A program made the position numbers and the translations under genes. This document shows, piece after piece, positions 19,924 to 25,787 of a stretch of DNA of 64,000 bases; the stretch's first letter is position 1; each line of letters opens with the position of its first letter. The notes under the pieces were generated by a model that saw only the letters and a list, made by a program, of their open reading frames with translations, had not been told where the DNA came from and searched no databases. Origin of the DNA: Crocinitomix sp. (GTDB taxonomy: Bacteria; Bacteroidota; Bacteroidia; Flavobacteriales_D; Crocinitomicaceae); contig WTCE01000098.1 of NCBI GenBank assembly GCA_013138735.1, positions 1 to 64,000 of the forward strand. The letters are read 5' to 3'.

Positions 19924-22392
19924 TTATTTTAAACCAGTACCAGAGAACATTTCACGATCTCTTCCTTTGTCTTTTATATAAGGATAAATGAGGTAGCAAA
20001 TACTCTTCAATTTTTTGAGTTCATTTTTTTCTGCGGCAACTTCTCCCTGATCTAATAATTTCTTCACTTTTGAATAATTATTGAATTCTTCAGGATCCAT
20101 TAAACGCAACATAAAGAAAATGTGCTCGTAAGAATCGTCTGAATTAAAATAGAGCGTTTGCGCTAATTTTTCTAAAGCTTTGCGTTTCCTGCGAATTAAA
20201 AATTTATCTCCCGATTGCAAAAACAACTTTTCGTCCTTAACAATGGTGTTAAACTCATTACGCATTGTTGGTGAAAATTCACTCTCTTGTATTAATAAGG
20301 CTTCTTTTTGGTGGGTATATTCATCCATTTCAAAAGATACATCTCTCAAAAACACCAGGCGATCGACTTCATATAATAAGCGCCTTTTCCGCTCTAATAA
20401 TTGAAATTTATTCACGGTTAAAATCTCATCTACAGCAAGCATAACTGAACCTTTTACATCTTCTAATTCCGATTTTATTTTGCTTAGTTTTCCTAGCAAT
20501 ACATAATCTTCGCTATCATTATTTAAGGCTAGTTGTTCTCGAATGACATCCAAACCTTGGTTCAATTCATTTAAGATTTTACGATTATCCACATCACCTT
20601 GGTATTGTGGATTGAAAGTTTTTGTAATCTCATGATCCGCACTTGGAACATAAATTTCTACCGTTAAATCACGCGATTCTGATATTTTAAAGTTCATTTC
20701 AATATCCGTTCCGCGAATAAGGTCATCATTCAAATCTTCCCCCTTAATTTCCACATAACCTATGTTAAGGTTTGCGCCGGGCATAGTTCCTACCTTTCCT
20801 TCTACAATATTGATGATAATTTTATCATCACTGCCTTTGGCTATACTTCTTGAAAAGGTTTTGTAAACCGATTTCTTCAGAGGTAAAATGGTGTTCTTTT
20901 TAAATATGACTTCCAAATAAGTTTCGTCATCCGCATCCAATTCTATGCAAATGTCATTTGGTAAGGGTTGCCCATCTACATTATAAAATCCATGCGAAAT
21001 GGCAATATTATCCTTGGTATAAAGTCTGTTTCTTTTAAGGTCCAAAATTGTTATGGTAAAGTAATTGACCTGTTTAGCCAAGAGTGTTACAAATTCACTA
21101 GCTTGGTTTTTAAAGGCTACTTCACCCGAATCAAAACCACCATCATTTCTAGTGACGCGGAAATAACCTTCTTCCAAAGCTGGCGTTTTGAATGCAATTA
21201 GCTCTTCTAAATCTTGCGTTTGACTTTCAACTGAAAGCGTAATATCAAAAGCCTTTTCAGTTTCGTTGGCTTCTGTTTCTTCGTTGGCATCTAGTCCGCT
21301 CATTTTGTTGCCCGCGTAATAGGTAGCACCAATAATTACGGCAGTGGTAGGATCAATGGTACTGTCAATTACCAGTTGCGTACGTTTTTTTAATTCCGCC
21401 CTAATGTATGGAATGTAAGTTGTGCCCCCCACTAAAATAATGCGTTCAAAATCGCTAAAGTCAAAGTGATTCTCTTTAACTAAGCCTTCCAATAACTCAA
21501 AGGAATCTTCAAAAATGGGCGCAATAATTTCATTTATTTCATGGCGCGAAATTTTTAGTTCAAGATCTAAATCAAATTCACTAAAACTCAGTTCTAACCA
21601 CGCTTCCTCCTTTAATGAAAGTTCTTTTTTTACTTCCTCTGTTTGGTATAATAGATATTTACCAAGTTTTTGGTAAGGGATATTATTGGGATCATTAATT
21701 TGATTCCAAATATCAGTTAAATTGGTTTTTTCGGTCAGTTTTGGAATCACAACTTTTGCCAAGAGCTGCAAATCAAGATCAACTCCACCTAAAAAATTAT
21801 TGCCTTTATTATCAATGACTTTTAACTCACGTTCATTAATGTTGACAATGGCTGCATCAAACGTTCCGCCACCAAAATCATAGACCAACCATTTTTTTTG
21901 CTCCGTAATATTCAAGTCATTTTCATTTGAATAAGCCAAGCACGCGGCAATTGGTTCTTGTAATAAAACAACCTCTCTTAGTCCTGATCGATAACCTGCT
22001 TCCTTAGTAGCATTGGATTGGATCGTGTCAAAAGAAGCTGGTATCGTAATGACCGCACTTGTCACTTTTTCGTTCAATGAAAAATTAAAAAGTTCCTTTA
22101 ATACCAAGGCTGAGAGTTCCACAGGATGCGTTTCTTTTTCACCATTTACAGTATACAACTCTGAAGTACCCATTTTTCTTTTGAACGAAGAAAAAACAGA
22201 AGCTGGATTGGAGACTAATTGTTCATTGGCTTTGTCCCCAATAATGATGCGCTCATTTTTATAAGCTACTACCGAAGGCAAGGTTTCCTTAAAACCAACC
22301 GGGTTTTTCAAAAGCATCACTTTACCATTTTCATAATGCCCAATCCCTGAATTGGTCGTGCCTAAATCGATTCCAAAATTTATATTCCCCAT
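19924..22392 (-). CDS. atypical Hsp70-family chaperone (822 aa)
   Basis: The N-terminal ATPase (about 1-370) has GIDLGTTNSGI, VITIPASF, QEPIAACLAY, VYDFGGGTFD and ILVGGTTYIPY, so it should bind and hydrolyse ATP. A weak substrate-binding-like beta region follows (INIVEGKVGTMPGANL; LIRGTDIEMNFKISESRDLTVE). Residues ~600-822 are helical and rich in Lys, Glu and Leu. It is longer than DnaK and has no EEVD-type tail. A GrpE-like gene ends 1 bp before its start codon, and membrane paralogs lie divergently. It is likely a specialised chaperone. Confidence 0.9.
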   Translation of the reverse strand: MGNINFGIDLGTTNSGIGHYENGKVMLLKNPVGFKETLPSVVAYKNERIIIGDKANEQLVSNPASVFSSFKRKMGTSELYTVNGEKETHPVELSALVLKELFNFSLNEKVTSAVITIPASFDTIQSNATKEAGYRSGLREVVLLQEPIAACLAYSNENDLNITEQKKWLVYDFGGGTFDAAIVNINERELKVIDNKGNNFLGGVDLDLQLLAKVVIPKLTEKTNLTDIWNQINDPNNIPYQKLGKYLLYQTEEVKKELSLKEEAWLELSFSEFDLDLELKISRHEINEIIAPIFEDSFELLEGLVKENHFDFSDFERIILVGGTTYIPYIRAELKKRTQLVIDSTIDPTTAVIIGATYYAGNKMSGLDANEETEANETEKAFDITLSVESQTQDLEELIAFKTPALEEGYFRVTRNDGGFDSGEVAFKNQASEFVTLLAKQVNYFTITILDLKRNRLYTKDNIAISHGFYNVDGQPLPNDICIELDADDETYLEVIFKKNTILPLKKSVYKTFSRSIAKGSDDKIIINIVEGKVGTMPGANLNIGYVEIKGEDLNDDLIRGTDIEMNFKISESRDLTVEIYVPSADHEITKTFNPQYQGDVDNRKILNELNQGLDVIREQLALNNDSEDYVLLGKLSKIKSELEDVKGSVMLAVDEILTVNKFQLLERKRRLLYEVDRLVFLRDVSFEMDEYTHQKEALLIQESEFSPTMRNEFNTIVKDEKLFLQSGDKFLIRRKRKALEKLAQTLYFNSDDSYEHIFFMLRLMDPEEFNNYSKVKKLLDQGEVAAEKNELKKLKSICYLIYPYIKDKGRDREMFSGTGLK

Positions 22393-22393
22393 C

Positions 22394-22687
22394 CTATTCT
22401 ACAATTACAATTCCTTTTTGCGCCAATTGGTTTTGACCATTTTCATTTTGATAGATGATTGGCTTGAGCACCTTTACAATTTTTGATTTAGAATGTATTG
22501 TCGTGGCAATATTTGCCTCAATATCTGCGTCTGTTTCTTTATAAGGTCTGTTCAAAGGATCAATGACCGTATATCCCATTTCCTCAATCTCAGTATTTAC
22601 GCGACGTAAATTCCGCGCAATAGCATCATATGAGTTGGATTCGGCTTTGTTGGATATTTCCCAAATTTGGTTAATGATTGTGAGCAT
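22394..22687 (-). CDS. GrpE-like nucleotide exchange factor (short)
   Basis: ATG 22687 gives 97 residues; a TTG at 22705 is also in frame. The second half resembles the GrpE beta-wing head: EEMGYTVIDPLNRPYKET, then IVKVLKPIIYQNENG and a final KGIVIVE, which parallels the end of E. coli GrpE as remembered. The long coiled coil of true GrpE is reduced to a short helix. It stops 1 bp before the Hsp70 start codon, so it probably releases ADP from that Hsp70. The assignment is by pattern only. Confidence 0.6.
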   Translation of the reverse strand: MLTIINQIWEISNKAESNSYDAIARNLRRVNTEIEEMGYTVIDPLNRPYKETDADIEANIATTIHSKSKIVKVLKPIIYQNENGQNQLAQKGIVIVE

Positions 22688-22702
22688 ATTGACTATTTTA
22701 AA

Positions 22703-22710
22703 CAAATATA
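22703..22710 (-). promoter_or_regulatory. possible -7 element for the GrpE-like/Hsp70 operon
   Basis: On the minus strand the bases read TATATTTG, a match to TAnnTTTG, 15 bp before ATG 22687. The space between the divergent genes is short, so promoters for both directions must lie within about 64 bp. Confidence 0.35.
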
Positions 22711-22751
22711 TTCAAACTTCTTATTTTAGCGGATTAGAATTGAACCTATAA

Positions 22752-24311
22752 ATGGCCTTAATCCAACAATTGCAAAATTTTAATCTTGATCTGACTAAGC
22801 TTCATGAGCTTTCTGAGCAGGATTTGATCCGCATTGAAAAAAAGTTTAAGGCAGAAATTAGGCTGAATGATAGTTTGGATATGAATGATTTGGAGCAAGT
22901 CATTTACGTCTTAAAACACCATCAACAAGATATGATTTGGCTCATGACGGATGAGTTAAAACTATTAAAATCCATTCTAACAAATCCACAAAAATTTATA
23001 GTTAAAAAAGGAGAAGTTAGTATAAGTACCGAAATTGATAGAACGGCATTTAGTTTGTTTTTAGAGAATTATTTCGATAAAGAACTGCGGCAATATGTTG
23101 ATAAATGTATTAAAAACGATTTTTACAACGCAATACATTCCTTGCTCAAGTTCCAAGCACTTTTAACACCACAATTGTTAAATGAACTCCAAAACAAATT
23201 AGCGAATAAACTAAACTATGCGGTTGAGTGCATTGATATTTCGGCATCCGACATTTCGCGTAAAGTTAGTTATTGCACCAATCCTTTTTTCTATCGTGTG
23301 CTCTCTCAATTGGGTTCAGGACAATATGAAAGTGATATTGTTGATTTATTGAACACGACAATCAGCAAATTAAAGACCAAAGAATTGCATTGGGCAATTG
23401 TTTTTGCAATGGGGAGTTTCGCTGCGCAAGGCGAAGGTTTAAAAGATACGTTGAGAGGGAATAAGTCGACCGCCTTTCAACGAGGAGTGCGTGAGACAAA
23501 GGTAAATCGTATTACAGGTAGAGCAACTGGTGGCGCAACAAGTTCTGGCGAACCATTGCCACGTGATCCAAAAGCGAAAGCTAGCAAATCGGGCAATTAC
23601 GTCATTCTTTTTGTAATTGCGATTATCATTAGTATCGTGTTCAGTATTAGCAAATGTCAACGCAAAAATCGAATTAGTGATAATTTCATAGAAAATAGAT
23701 GGGCACCCGTTTATGAATCTGATCCAGGCTTATATGAAGAAGATCGCGTAGTAATAGAAGATAATCAAAATGATTTACGGCAAAAAGTTCTAAGTGAATT
23801 GGACCAAAAGGAGGTCACAACCGACCTATCACGAGAAGCAAATAGCTTTGAGGCAATTATTAATTATTTGCATAGTAATGATGCGCAAATAACTGAAGTG
23901 CGAGAAATTCCATTTAACATAGATTCTACCGAATTAAATAAAGGGCCAAATTATAATTCGCCGCTAAAAAATATTAAGTTAGTCAACCTTTTAGGTGAGC
24001 GTTTAGTCGTGCAATCACGCACGTTGCATTGGAATCGTTATCATATAATGGAACCAAATGCCACGATAACAATTTCTCATAAATTAAAAGGCTTAAAGTT
24101 TTATGTTGGAAACGATCCTGTGTTGGTTGATTATATAGATGAATATGGTCAATCTCAAAGTCATTTTATGTTCGATCAAGTAACAGAAGAACAATTGGAT
24201 GATTTCAATAATTTTCATAATCTGAGTCAGTATTTTGATGACAAGGAACAATATGAAATTTTGTTAACCTATATGAATAGTGAAATTGAATTGGAGGTAA
24301 GTCAAAAATAG
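22752..24311 (+). CDS. membrane protein of the Hsp70 locus, paralog 1 (519 aa)
   Basis: No known domain is recognised. Residues 1-270 look cytoplasmic and helical, with LHELSEQDLIRIEKKFKAE near the start and NPFFYRVLSQLGSGQYESDI in the middle. A basic, Gly-rich linker precedes one membrane helix at about 282-300 (YVILFVIAIIISIVFSI), and ~200 residues lie beyond it. The downstream gene has the same layout and matching motifs. It is transcribed divergently from the GrpE-like/Hsp70 pair, and contains no J-domain HPD motif. Confidence 0.8.
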   Translation: MALIQQLQNFNLDLTKLHELSEQDLIRIEKKFKAEIRLNDSLDMNDLEQVIYVLKHHQQDMIWLMTDELKLLKSILTNPQKFIVKKGEVSISTEIDRTAFSLFLENYFDKELRQYVDKCIKNDFYNAIHSLLKFQALLTPQLLNELQNKLANKLNYAVECIDISASDISRKVSYCTNPFFYRVLSQLGSGQYESDIVDLLNTTISKLKTKELHWAIVFAMGSFAAQGEGLKDTLRGNKSTAFQRGVRETKVNRITGRATGGATSSGEPLPRDPKAKASKSGNYVILFVIAIIISIVFSISKCQRKNRISDNFIENRWAPVYESDPGLYEEDRVVIEDNQNDLRQKVLSELDQKEVTTDLSREANSFEAIINYLHSNDAQITEVREIPFNIDSTELNKGPNYNSPLKNIKLVNLLGERLVVQSRTLHWNRYHIMEPNATITISHKLKGLKFYVGNDPVLVDYIDEYGQSQSHFMFDQVTEEQLDDFNNFHNLSQYFDDKEQYEILLTYMNSEIELEVSQK

Positions 24312-25787
24312 ATGTCACTCTTTAAACAAATAGAAAATTTAGGAATTCCAATAAAGGAATTGGCTGAGCTCACCGAGCAGGACATTATTCGCATTGAGAA
24401 AAAACTGAAAGCGCAAGTGCGTTTGGATAATACCCTTGATACAAATGATGTAGTTAAAATTGTCCATGCCTTAAGAAAAGAAAAGGTCAATATTGCGACC
24501 TTATTTCAAGGCGGTTTTAAAGGCTTACTTGATATTTTACAAAGCGAAAATGAATTTGTTTATAAAGTGAATAGCCGCTTTACTCAACTTAAATTTGAAC
24601 CCGATTTTATTCGCTTTTTGGCCAGCAATTTTGAGGATGAATTAAAGAATTATGTTGAGCGTTGTATTAGAGTAGATCACTATTACGGTCTTCATTCTTT
24701 ACTCTATTATACACCCGTTATTAGCTCAGAATTATTGCAGCTAATTTCGCGAAGATTGGAGCAGAAATTGGATTTTATGATTGAATCCATGCGTATTGGG
24801 TCAGAGCAAATTGAAATTAAAACGCAAGCCGCCGCGAATCCATTTTTCTATCGCTGTTTAAATCGATTGGGAGGCATTCAGTTTGAAAGTGACATCTCCA
24901 CGCTCTTGAACACAACACTTGAGCACATTAAGACTAAAAAGTGGAATTTTAGAATTCTATTTGCCCAAGGCGCATTTAGGGCAATTAGTGATAACCTGAA
25001 AGAGGCATTAGCACAAAATAAGACAATAGCATTCAATGCAGGAACTCGTGAAAAAACATATCCTGCAGGTAAACCAAAAGGGAAAGGTGGAACAACAATT
25101 AGCCGTTTCAATTCTGGCCGAAAAAGGCGACCAGAAAATAAAGCCTCTGGTGGAAGCTACCATTATTTCATTTGGCCAATAATAGTGGCTGGTATGCTTT
25201 TATTACGAATGATTACTGCGGATCATAACGACAGAAAGATTGAATTTCCAAGTAATTTTCAGGAGACAATTACGCTTGAAGATGTATTACATCTCGGTAC
25301 AACAAAGGGAGGCTTTGTAGATCTCATGAAGTATTTGCATTCAGATACAGTTGAGATTATTGCCCAAAGAGACATTGCATTTAATCTTAAGAACACGAAC
25401 CTTGCACCAGGGCAAACTAGCGTTATTAGTGCTAGCTCACTCTATATCAAAAACGATACTGAACGTTCAATTGTAGTAATTGCAGAAAGACATGGGCTCG
25501 CAAATTCTTTGTACTACTGTTTAAATCCAAATCAACAAATTGCCGTATTGCCACAATTGTCAAGCATCCGAATCTATAGTGGAAATGAACCACAAATCAT
25601 AGATTATATGGATGATAAAGGAGATATATTAAGTCATTTCCGATTCAATGAATTTACGCAGCTAGATCTATGGAACCTTGAGGCAAAGCACAGTGTTAAC
25701 GCTGTCTTTAATACGGGTGGTAAGCAGTTAATCACTATAACCTTATCTCAAAGCGCTTACAGAGTGAAGGTTGGCTTGCTTGATTGA
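24312..25787 (+). CDS. membrane protein of the Hsp70 locus, paralog 2 (491 aa)
   Basis: It starts on the base after the stop of paralog 1. Shared motifs include ELTEQDIIRIEKKLKAQVRLDNTLD, given here in part as LTEQDIIRIEKKL, and AANPFFYRCLNRLGGIQFES. A Gly/Lys/Arg linker (PAGKPKGKGGTTISRF) precedes one membrane helix at about 283-302, then ~190 residues. Late motifs (SSIRIYSGNEPQIIDYMDD) match KFYVGNDPVLVDYIDE of paralog 1. The pair arose by duplication. Role unknown; perhaps clients or adaptors of the Hsp70. Confidence 0.8.
   Translation: MSLFKQIENLGIPIKELAELTEQDIIRIEKKLKAQVRLDNTLDTNDVVKIVHALRKEKVNIATLFQGGFKGLLDILQSENEFVYKVNSRFTQLKFEPDFIRFLASNFEDELKNYVERCIRVDHYYGLHSLLYYTPVISSELLQLISRRLEQKLDFMIESMRIGSEQIEIKTQAAANPFFYRCLNRLGGIQFESDISTLLNTTLEHIKTKKWNFRILFAQGAFRAISDNLKEALAQNKTIAFNAGTREKTYPAGKPKGKGGTTISRFNSGRKRRPENKASGGSYHYFIWPIIVAGMLLLRMITADHNDRKIEFPSNFQETITLEDVLHLGTTKGGFVDLMKYLHSDTVEIIAQRDIAFNLKNTNLAPGQTSVISASSLYIKNDTERSIVVIAERHGLANSLYYCLNPNQQIAVLPQLSSIRIYSGNEPQIIDYMDDKGDILSHFRFNEFTQLDLWNLEAKHSVNAVFNTGGKQLITITLSQSAYRVKVGLLD

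Follow-up and report, generated by a model that had tools for sequence, protein, structure and literature searches.

Specialised Hsp70s are known from several settings: in Escherichia coli the hscC gene lies beside djlC, which encodes a J-protein with a single transmembrane (TM) helix (residues 458-476), and mitochondrial Hsp70 (mtHsp70) serves a translocon. To our knowledge, every characterised Hsp70 cycle relies on a J-domain whose HPD motif acts on the R167 network. In the J-domain literature this motif is called invariant (PMC7289447, PMC8215388). Here we describe a locus in a stretch of 64,000 nucleotides from Crocinitomix sp. (contig WTCE01000098.1, positions 1 to 64,000 of the forward strand; hereafter the window), which encodes an Hsp70 (P0001), a small GrpE-like protein (P0002, mini-GrpE) and two membrane proteins (P0003 and P0004, the membrane partners). 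An earlier note on this DNA proposed a self-contained Hsp70 module whose membrane proteins either replace the J-protein or are clients.

Several described systems share features with this set. The E. coli pair has a comparable gene arrangement; however, HscC retains the residues R167, N170, T173, E217, Q378 and D148 discussed below, DjlC has an HPD motif, and HscC, at 550-580 aa, is without the insert of the window Hsp70. HscCs are also thought not to use GrpE (PMC8215388), whereas the window set encodes a GrpE homolog. The mitochondrial import motor (Tim44-Pam18-Pam16-mtHsp70-Mge1) is described as combining a membrane-tethered Hsp70, a GrpE-type factor and Pam16/Magmas, a J-like protein that lacks HPD (PMC8605242). 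In that motor, stimulation of the Hsp70 comes from Pam18, a genuine J-protein, and not from the J-like one, whereas the window set encodes no such HPD protein. Among conflict systems, the GAP1-N2 GTPase systems (Kaur et al. 2020) include predicted operons with an Hsp70, a GrpE and a DnaJ-domain fusion (PMC7159879). They are presented in that paper as GTPase-centred, mostly from actinobacteria and firmicutes, with a DnaJ-FNIII fusion, whereas the window set has no GTPase. Hsp70-like proteins also occur within CoCoNuT defence systems, but CnuD is described as ATPase-degenerate and tied to McrBC (PMC11090510), in contrast to the window Hsp70, which keeps its catalytic residues and has no McrB in its set. 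Finally, Myxococcus xanthus DnaK2 is reported to be an Hsp70 paralog bicistronic with an upstream grpE, with clients rich in membrane proteins (PMC11019930); that system has a full GrpE and a DnaK-type Hsp70, and the passages of the paper that describe it mention no membrane J-like partner. In searches of the open-access PMC literature we found no description of the set of Hsp70, nucleotide-exchange factor (NEF) and partner reported here.

We think it reasonably probable that the locus encodes a self-contained machine of Hsp70, NEF and J-like protein that is anchored in the inner membrane and kept separate from the DnaK-DnaJ-GrpE system of the cell, and that machines of this kind come in three operon types. 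The comparisons below lend support to the self-contained module of the earlier note. Type I, to which the window belongs, consists of a mini-GrpE, the Hsp70 and a J-like membrane partner. Type II, found on another contig of the same genome (C183) and in other genomes, combines a J-like partner, a membrane GrpE-like protein, the Hsp70, a kinase-AAA+ protein and a TerB-like protein. Type III contains a GrpE-like protein, the Hsp70, an AAA+ protein, a J-like protein and often a peptidoglycan-binding protein.

Results

An Hsp70 without the canonical J-protein contacts

P0001 carries the motifs DLGTTNS, FKRKMG, QEP and DFGGGTFD, and is matched by Pfam HSP70 (PF00012) with an E-value of 2.4e-62 over residues 6-361 only. 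It falls below the cut-offs of the DnaK equivalog models, with 213 bits vs 648 for NF001413 and 211 vs 823 for TIGR02350. Functional residues were compared across 46 relatives, made up of 39 profile hits from fetched loci, L006 and six plasmid proteins. Near-duplicates were kept, and L180, which is broken, and L174, a fragment, were excluded. The controls were 29 Bacteroidota DnaKs (30 fetched, of which a motif filter removed one) together with DnaK, HscA and HscC of E. coli, the E. coli numbering being verified on the fetched sequence. The catalytic residues K70, E171, D194 and T199 are retained in all 46. The residues that contact DnaJ are not: R167 is present in one of the 46, and N170, T173, E217, Q378 and D148 in none, whereas all six are retained in 29/29 DnaKs and in the three E. 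coli Hsp70s. N170 is replaced by Q in 45/46, T173 by I or V and Q378 by Y or F in every member, and E217 by K or R in 32/46; the contact motif reads VVLLQEPIAA in P0001 vs KRIINEPTAA in DnaK. In DnaK, R167 and Q378 are reported to be bonded by D35 of DnaJ (PMC8215388), R167 is given as the site at which the J-domain exerts its allosteric perturbation (PMC7289447), and D148, R167, N170, T173 and E217 are listed for DnaJ binding or stimulation (PMC4022485).

The earlier note described intact ATPase motifs, which hold, and a divergent C-terminus, which can be defined more closely. There are about 110 extra residues (~366-477) between the nucleotide-binding domain (NBD) and the beta part of the substrate-binding domain (SBD-beta), at the place where the VLLLD linker would be, and VLLLD is missing in the alignment. 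A recognisable SBD-beta begins at residue 478 (hhalign of 36 C-terminal regions vs 27 DnaK SBDs, probability 96.5, E 9.1e-10), and a divergent lid follows it. In a tree of NBDs, the 44 clade members included all group together (support 0.82), with none of the 29 DnaKs or E. coli DnaK, HscA or HscC inside. By these comparisons P0001 is an Hsp70 of a clade separate from DnaK, HscA and HscC, and is not a DnaK; with its J-docking residues and VLLLD linker gone, the clade is not of the canonical J-dependent type.

Two side observations concern the same family. Clade Hsp70 tails often finish in (G/T)TG(I/L) followed by one to two residues, as at 19924-19945 of the window, which may be a docking tail. 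In addition, one type II operon (L171, 6795-11783) contains a tandem pair of clade Hsp70 genes.

A shortened GrpE homolog

The earlier note recognised GrpE-like motifs in the small protein, and profile comparison bears this out. When 23 mini-GrpEs and nine type II membrane GrpE-like proteins were aligned to 30 GrpEs, hhalign gave a probability of 87.8 and an E-value of 3.3e-6 over 103 columns. The score of 42.2 was reached by none of 100 shuffles (best 19.2), the reversed profile scored 18.1, and unrelated profiles score 9-14. The mini-GrpE set alone gave E 0.0011, and its beta head alone E 3.6e-4, in register. Conversely, the profile of the 33-protein NEF family matches two of 30 Bacteroidota GrpEs (2.1e-5 and 1.4e-4) and, over 395 genomes of the class, one canonical grpE-dnaJ locus (G486, E 2.6e-6), whose gene is a canonical grpE (PF01025, E 6.5e-42); this locus was accordingly rejected as a mini-GrpE without an Hsp70. 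We therefore regard it as established from these profiles that P0002 is homologous to GrpE over the helix and the beta head, i.e. a shortened GrpE, and it would be expected to act in nucleotide exchange. In one relative (G429; L151, 5254-6866) the mini-GrpE gene is split by ~1.3 kb, and the intervening stretch has two open reading frames (ORFs) on the opposite strand.

Membrane partners related to HPD-less J-like modules

P0003 and P0004 are paralogs (E 3.5e-56), with 37% identity over residues 1-293 and 31% in the alignment, and each has one membrane helix after a basic/Gly-rich linker, the plan that the earlier note had described. Its observation that none of the four window proteins has an HPD motif also stands, and it can be extended: the motif is found in none of 42 partner N-modules, two of which (L094 and L177) read DPD. 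The type I N-module is related to those of types II and III, with E 1.8e-6 against 12 J-like members and 1.4e-5 against all 27. These sister modules resemble J-domains in which the HPD loop is replaced, having NPFxILG, a basic helix 2, and a helix 3 that leads to a DPxxR-like turn. Searched against 177,635 PDB sequences, a profile built from 15 sister modules returned J-proteins in the first eight rows and in 14 of 20, one of the 14 (mKIAA0962) being assigned by the HPD in its alignment. The predicted N-terminus of P0004 is helical (residues 3-8, 14-17, 22-38, 44-64 and 67-77), with a predicted local distance difference test (pLDDT) score of 50-71.

The part beyond the membrane helix is variable. 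In P0004 it is a predicted beta-sandwich, with the extracellular domain of PepT2 as best match (Z 8.9, root-mean-square deviation 2.7, 87 aligned) and VHL and transthyretin as further matches (Z about 6). One relative (L165, 6842-8185) has TonB_C as its outer half (E 2.6e-18), another (L176) unites a peptidoglycan-binding domain and the J-like module in one chain, two (L033, L167) have a Cys-rich outer part with two helices, and three (L032, L153, L158) have little sequence beyond the helix. A topology with the N-terminus inside and the C-terminus outside fits both the basic/Gly linker and the TonB_C outer half.

Because the N-module is kin to HPD-less J-like modules, and because the Hsp70 has lost its J-binding residues, the membrane partners are plausible replacements for a J-protein, as the earlier note suggested. 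The number of partners varies: a Crocinitomix metagenome-assembled genome (MAG) has three (L005, 3115-7640) rather than two, and the family therefore expands within the genus. Elsewhere in the window's own genome, four J-domain proteins of ~285-301 aa are encoded in tandem (contig C146:22207-24990, L072-L075).

Linkage of the three components

The set is not a chance arrangement, because it recurs in two uncultured Crocinitomix MAGs at 87-91% identity (L005, and L006 with at least two paralogs before the contig end) and in distant genomes. Its nearest named relatives are these two MAGs and Taibaiella koreensis, where mini-GrpE, Hsp70 and one membrane partner follow in this order on a single strand. 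A profile of the Hsp70 C-terminal region finds the clade in 12 of 296 genomes of the phylum and 26 of 395 of the class, three genomes being common to both samples. The clade Hsp70 was not found in ten other same-family genomes of the class sample, one of the same genus among the eleven relatives listed.

Within the class sample, the Hsp70 is present in 26 genomes, a match to the NEF profile in 24 and both in 22. The two with a NEF match alone are G486, the canonical locus above, and G614, in which the Hsp70 is cut by a contig end, so that all 23 genomes with a non-canonical NEF have an adjacent Hsp70. The four with the Hsp70 alone comprise a fragment at a contig start (G404) and three members of one subclade (G338, G458, G504), in which a divergent partner is present and a NEF was not found. 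In total, 47 Hsp70s in 46 loci were examined; 41 have a NEF match, 41 a partner match and 35 both. The co-occurrence for which the earlier note had proposed to look thus extends well beyond the genus, although it is not universal. Two other matches were rejected by eye, one being histidine-kinase-like (G138, E 0.005) and the other reading as an FtsX-like permease (G257, E 3e-4).

Organization of the locus and its genome

All four ORFs lie where the earlier note placed them (Table 1). A single base separates the TAG of mini-GrpE (22394) from the ATG of the Hsp70, and the two genes form an operon. The partner genes, with zero bases between them, begin 64 bases from mini-GrpE on the opposite strand. 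Within the divergent intergenic region, the minus strand contains TATATTTG, which resembles the Bacteroidota -7 box TAnnTTTG and is a putative promoter element.

Table 1. Coordinates of the window features and of the second related locus of the genome
Feature	Position	Strand	Remarks
Hsp70, P0001	19924..22392	-	822 aa; remodelled clade; tail end FSGTGLK
NBD, residues 1-365	21298..22392	-	Pfam HSP70 6-361 and residue alignment
Inserted stretch, residues ~366-477	20962..21297	-	NBD match stops at 361, SBD-beta match starts at 478
SBD-beta, residues ~478-600	20593..20961	-	hhalign; end approximate
Divergent helical lid and C-terminal tail, residues ~601-822	19927..20592	-	boundary approximate
Mini-GrpE (NEF homolog), P0002	22394..22687	-	97 aa; ATG at 22687, TAG ends 22394
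Divergent intergenic region	22688..22751	.	64 bp
Membrane partner 1, P0003	22752..24311	+	519 aa; J-like N-module ~1-80, helical domain, basic/Gly linker, TM 284-302, outer part
Membrane partner 2, P0004	24312..25787	+	491 aa; plan as P0003; TM 285-303; outer beta-sandwich ~371-491
Second locus, L038 (contig C183)	929-8264		type II; encodes a TerB-like protein, a kinase-AAA+ fusion, the Hsp70, a membrane GrpE-like protein and a J-like protein with a tail anchor

The assembly (6.84 Mb in 188 contigs) encodes an ordinary DnaK (L003) and an ordinary grpE-dnaJ operon (L011) elsewhere, and the window set is therefore an addition to the genome. It also contains the second related Hsp70 locus, of type II. 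By eye, the neighbours of the window set look like ordinary genes. Pfam, NCBIfam and PADLOC searches of the window proteins name the Hsp70 alone; names below threshold, among them UPF0180, DUF5617 and Csm2, have E-values of 0.01 or weaker and were dismissed as chance hits.

Relatives on plasmids

A plasmid search with P0001 found 33 records, five at 80% coverage or more, most of the others matching the NBD only. Among phage records there were 24 matches, all covering 80% of P0001 or less; those listed reach the NBD only. Nine plasmid loci were inspected, from Pseudomonadota and one Saprospirales strain. Pseudomonas hygromyciniae pSDM007 has a type I locus, with 35% identity over 99% of P0001. 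Neighbours from five of the nine were scanned with PADLOC, and four of the five loci lie beside strong matches to known defence systems. The matches are GajA/GajB (5e-275/6e-241, Gabija) together with a type IIG restriction-modification system at L214, ZorA/ZorB (2e-211/3e-99, Zorya) at L177, BrxL/PglZ (1e-295/0, BREX) at L181 and GajA (2.7e-41) at L176; the fifth locus, L213, of which one protein was scanned, gave no PADLOC match. Annotated Tn7-like tns genes surround two further loci, L178 and L180. In a genome with no clade Hsp70 match (G002; L034, 9818-18893), a partner-like protein is encoded upstream of genes for a PLD protein, which matches PDC-M27B at 1.8e-18, and for a large helicase.

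For the window proteins themselves, PADLOC 2.0.0 gave no credible match, the only one being P0003 to Csm2 (E 0.017). The proteins of the set matched none of its described systems, with hits to generic AAA and kinase domains only.

Discussion

The homologies, residue losses and linkage, together with a topology read from composition, come directly from the sequences. On them a cycle can be proposed in which the cytoplasmic J-like half of the partner would bind the rebuilt face of the Hsp70 and control its ATPase without an HPD motif, mini-GrpE would reset the Hsp70, and the outer half of the partner would sense or grip something in the envelope. The Hsp70 cycle would thereby be tethered to the envelope and probably gated by its state. 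Loss of the J-site in the Hsp70 and of the HPD motif in the partner is the remnant to be expected if both faces had co-evolved. As to the role of such a machine, we give about equal weight to envelope proteostasis or stress and to defence against phages or plasmids; the window has no defence neighbours and several plasmid relatives do.

The foremost alternative is that the locus is a defence or conflict system outright, with the same mechanism, in which the envelope-anchored Hsp70 machine would sense the entry of a phage or plasmid and trigger or fold an effector. We regard this as a real possibility, though not the one we favour. Defence is a serious candidate because plasmid relatives adjoin Gabija, Zorya or BREX genes or sit in Tn7-like elements (L178, L180), and the sporadic presence in both the phylum and the class samples points the same way, as does the partner near a PLD protein in the absence of an Hsp70 (L034). 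A chaperone route to defence is also plausible given that phage sensing by bNACHT25 is reported to require DnaJ (PMC12169576). However, the plasmid neighbour counts have no background rate to set them against, the four defence-adjacent loci comprise three of type III and one of type II and none of the window's type I, and in the window there is neither a credible PADLOC match nor a neighbour other than ordinary-looking genes, nor any toxin or nuclease in the set. More tentatively still, this Hsp70 lineage may have given up HPD activation altogether, its cycle being driven from the envelope by a co-evolved HPD-less J-like receptor of the inner membrane, and may have become a horizontally spreading orthogonal machine that acts in defence, at least on plasmids, by sensing breaches of the envelope.

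The second alternative, that the membrane proteins are dedicated clients which the Hsp70 folds or inserts and not co-chaperones, was the other possibility raised in the earlier note. Variable outer domains and a varying paralog number (two in the window, three in L005) would suit a set of clients, and the Hsp70 has retained its SBD-beta. On the other hand, the conserved part of the partners is the cytoplasmic N-module common to types II and III, whereas clients would need no J-like module, and with the housekeeping J-site lost another activator is needed; we consider the client explanation unlikely. That P0001 is an ordinary DnaK duplicate using the housekeeping DnaJ and GrpE, both of which the genome encodes, is very improbable despite the Hsp70 calls of Pfam and NCBIfam, and was already disfavoured by the clade-wide loss of J-contacts, the adjacent NEF gene and the separate clade.

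Several results weigh against a self-contained machine with a mini-GrpE and a J-like partner. For mini-GrpE, the NEF profile has 17 matches in the PDB, none of them a GrpE (best E 0.15), P0002 has no PDB match by phmmer, and Pfam GrpE (PF01025) does not list it at E-values up to 10. A first profile of few sequences gave E 0.0016 against GrpE, improving only after relatives were added. The AlphaFold2 model of P0002 is poor (mean pLDDT 65), and nothing matches it at an E-value of 0.001 or less; it finds only unrelated folds at Z 3.7 or less, with no GrpE or J-domains among the matches listed, which excludes neither fold. For the partners, the best PDB match of the sister modules to J-proteins is weak (E 0.0057), and hhalign of the modules to J-domains gives E 7e-4 to 0.0095 with probabilities of 4-26%. 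In the alignment that gave 7e-4, one row (L172) was mis-started; once this row was removed and type III included, E was 0.0032. The first type I partner profile gave E 0.58 against the J-domain and 0.039 against the sister module, and improved only with more relatives. The P0004 model shows no J fold, in a search dominated by the outer beta-sandwich in which the helical half was barely tested.

The linkage is also incomplete. Six of the 47 Hsp70s have no detected NEF (L093, L095 (contig end), L162, L166, L168 and L176), and six no detected partner, of which five (L154, L156, L157, L159 and L160) belong to one family, f52, and the other is L173. Some profiles were trained on loci in which they were later counted, and counts from profiles built before L151-L173 are for this reason fairer. 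These are lower for type I, at 14/18 for mini-GrpE (15 with a smaller ORF limit) and 11/18 for the partner; for type II they are 5/5 for the GrpE-like and 4/5 for the J-like protein. The earlier note had also considered that the paralogs might always occur without the Hsp70. They are found with it in many genomes, and without it in two (G002, G226) of the seven phylum-sample genomes with a plausible partner match.

Finally, we note what the envelope-tethered machine favoured here would mean for the Hsp70 family. A clade that keeps its ATPase residues, has lost the R167 network, and has its own NEF and an HPD-less membrane partner offers a natural test of alternative Hsp70 switching. It would supply an orthogonal Hsp70 at the inner membrane, together with a chaperone-based candidate for an envelope sensor in mobile defence islands.

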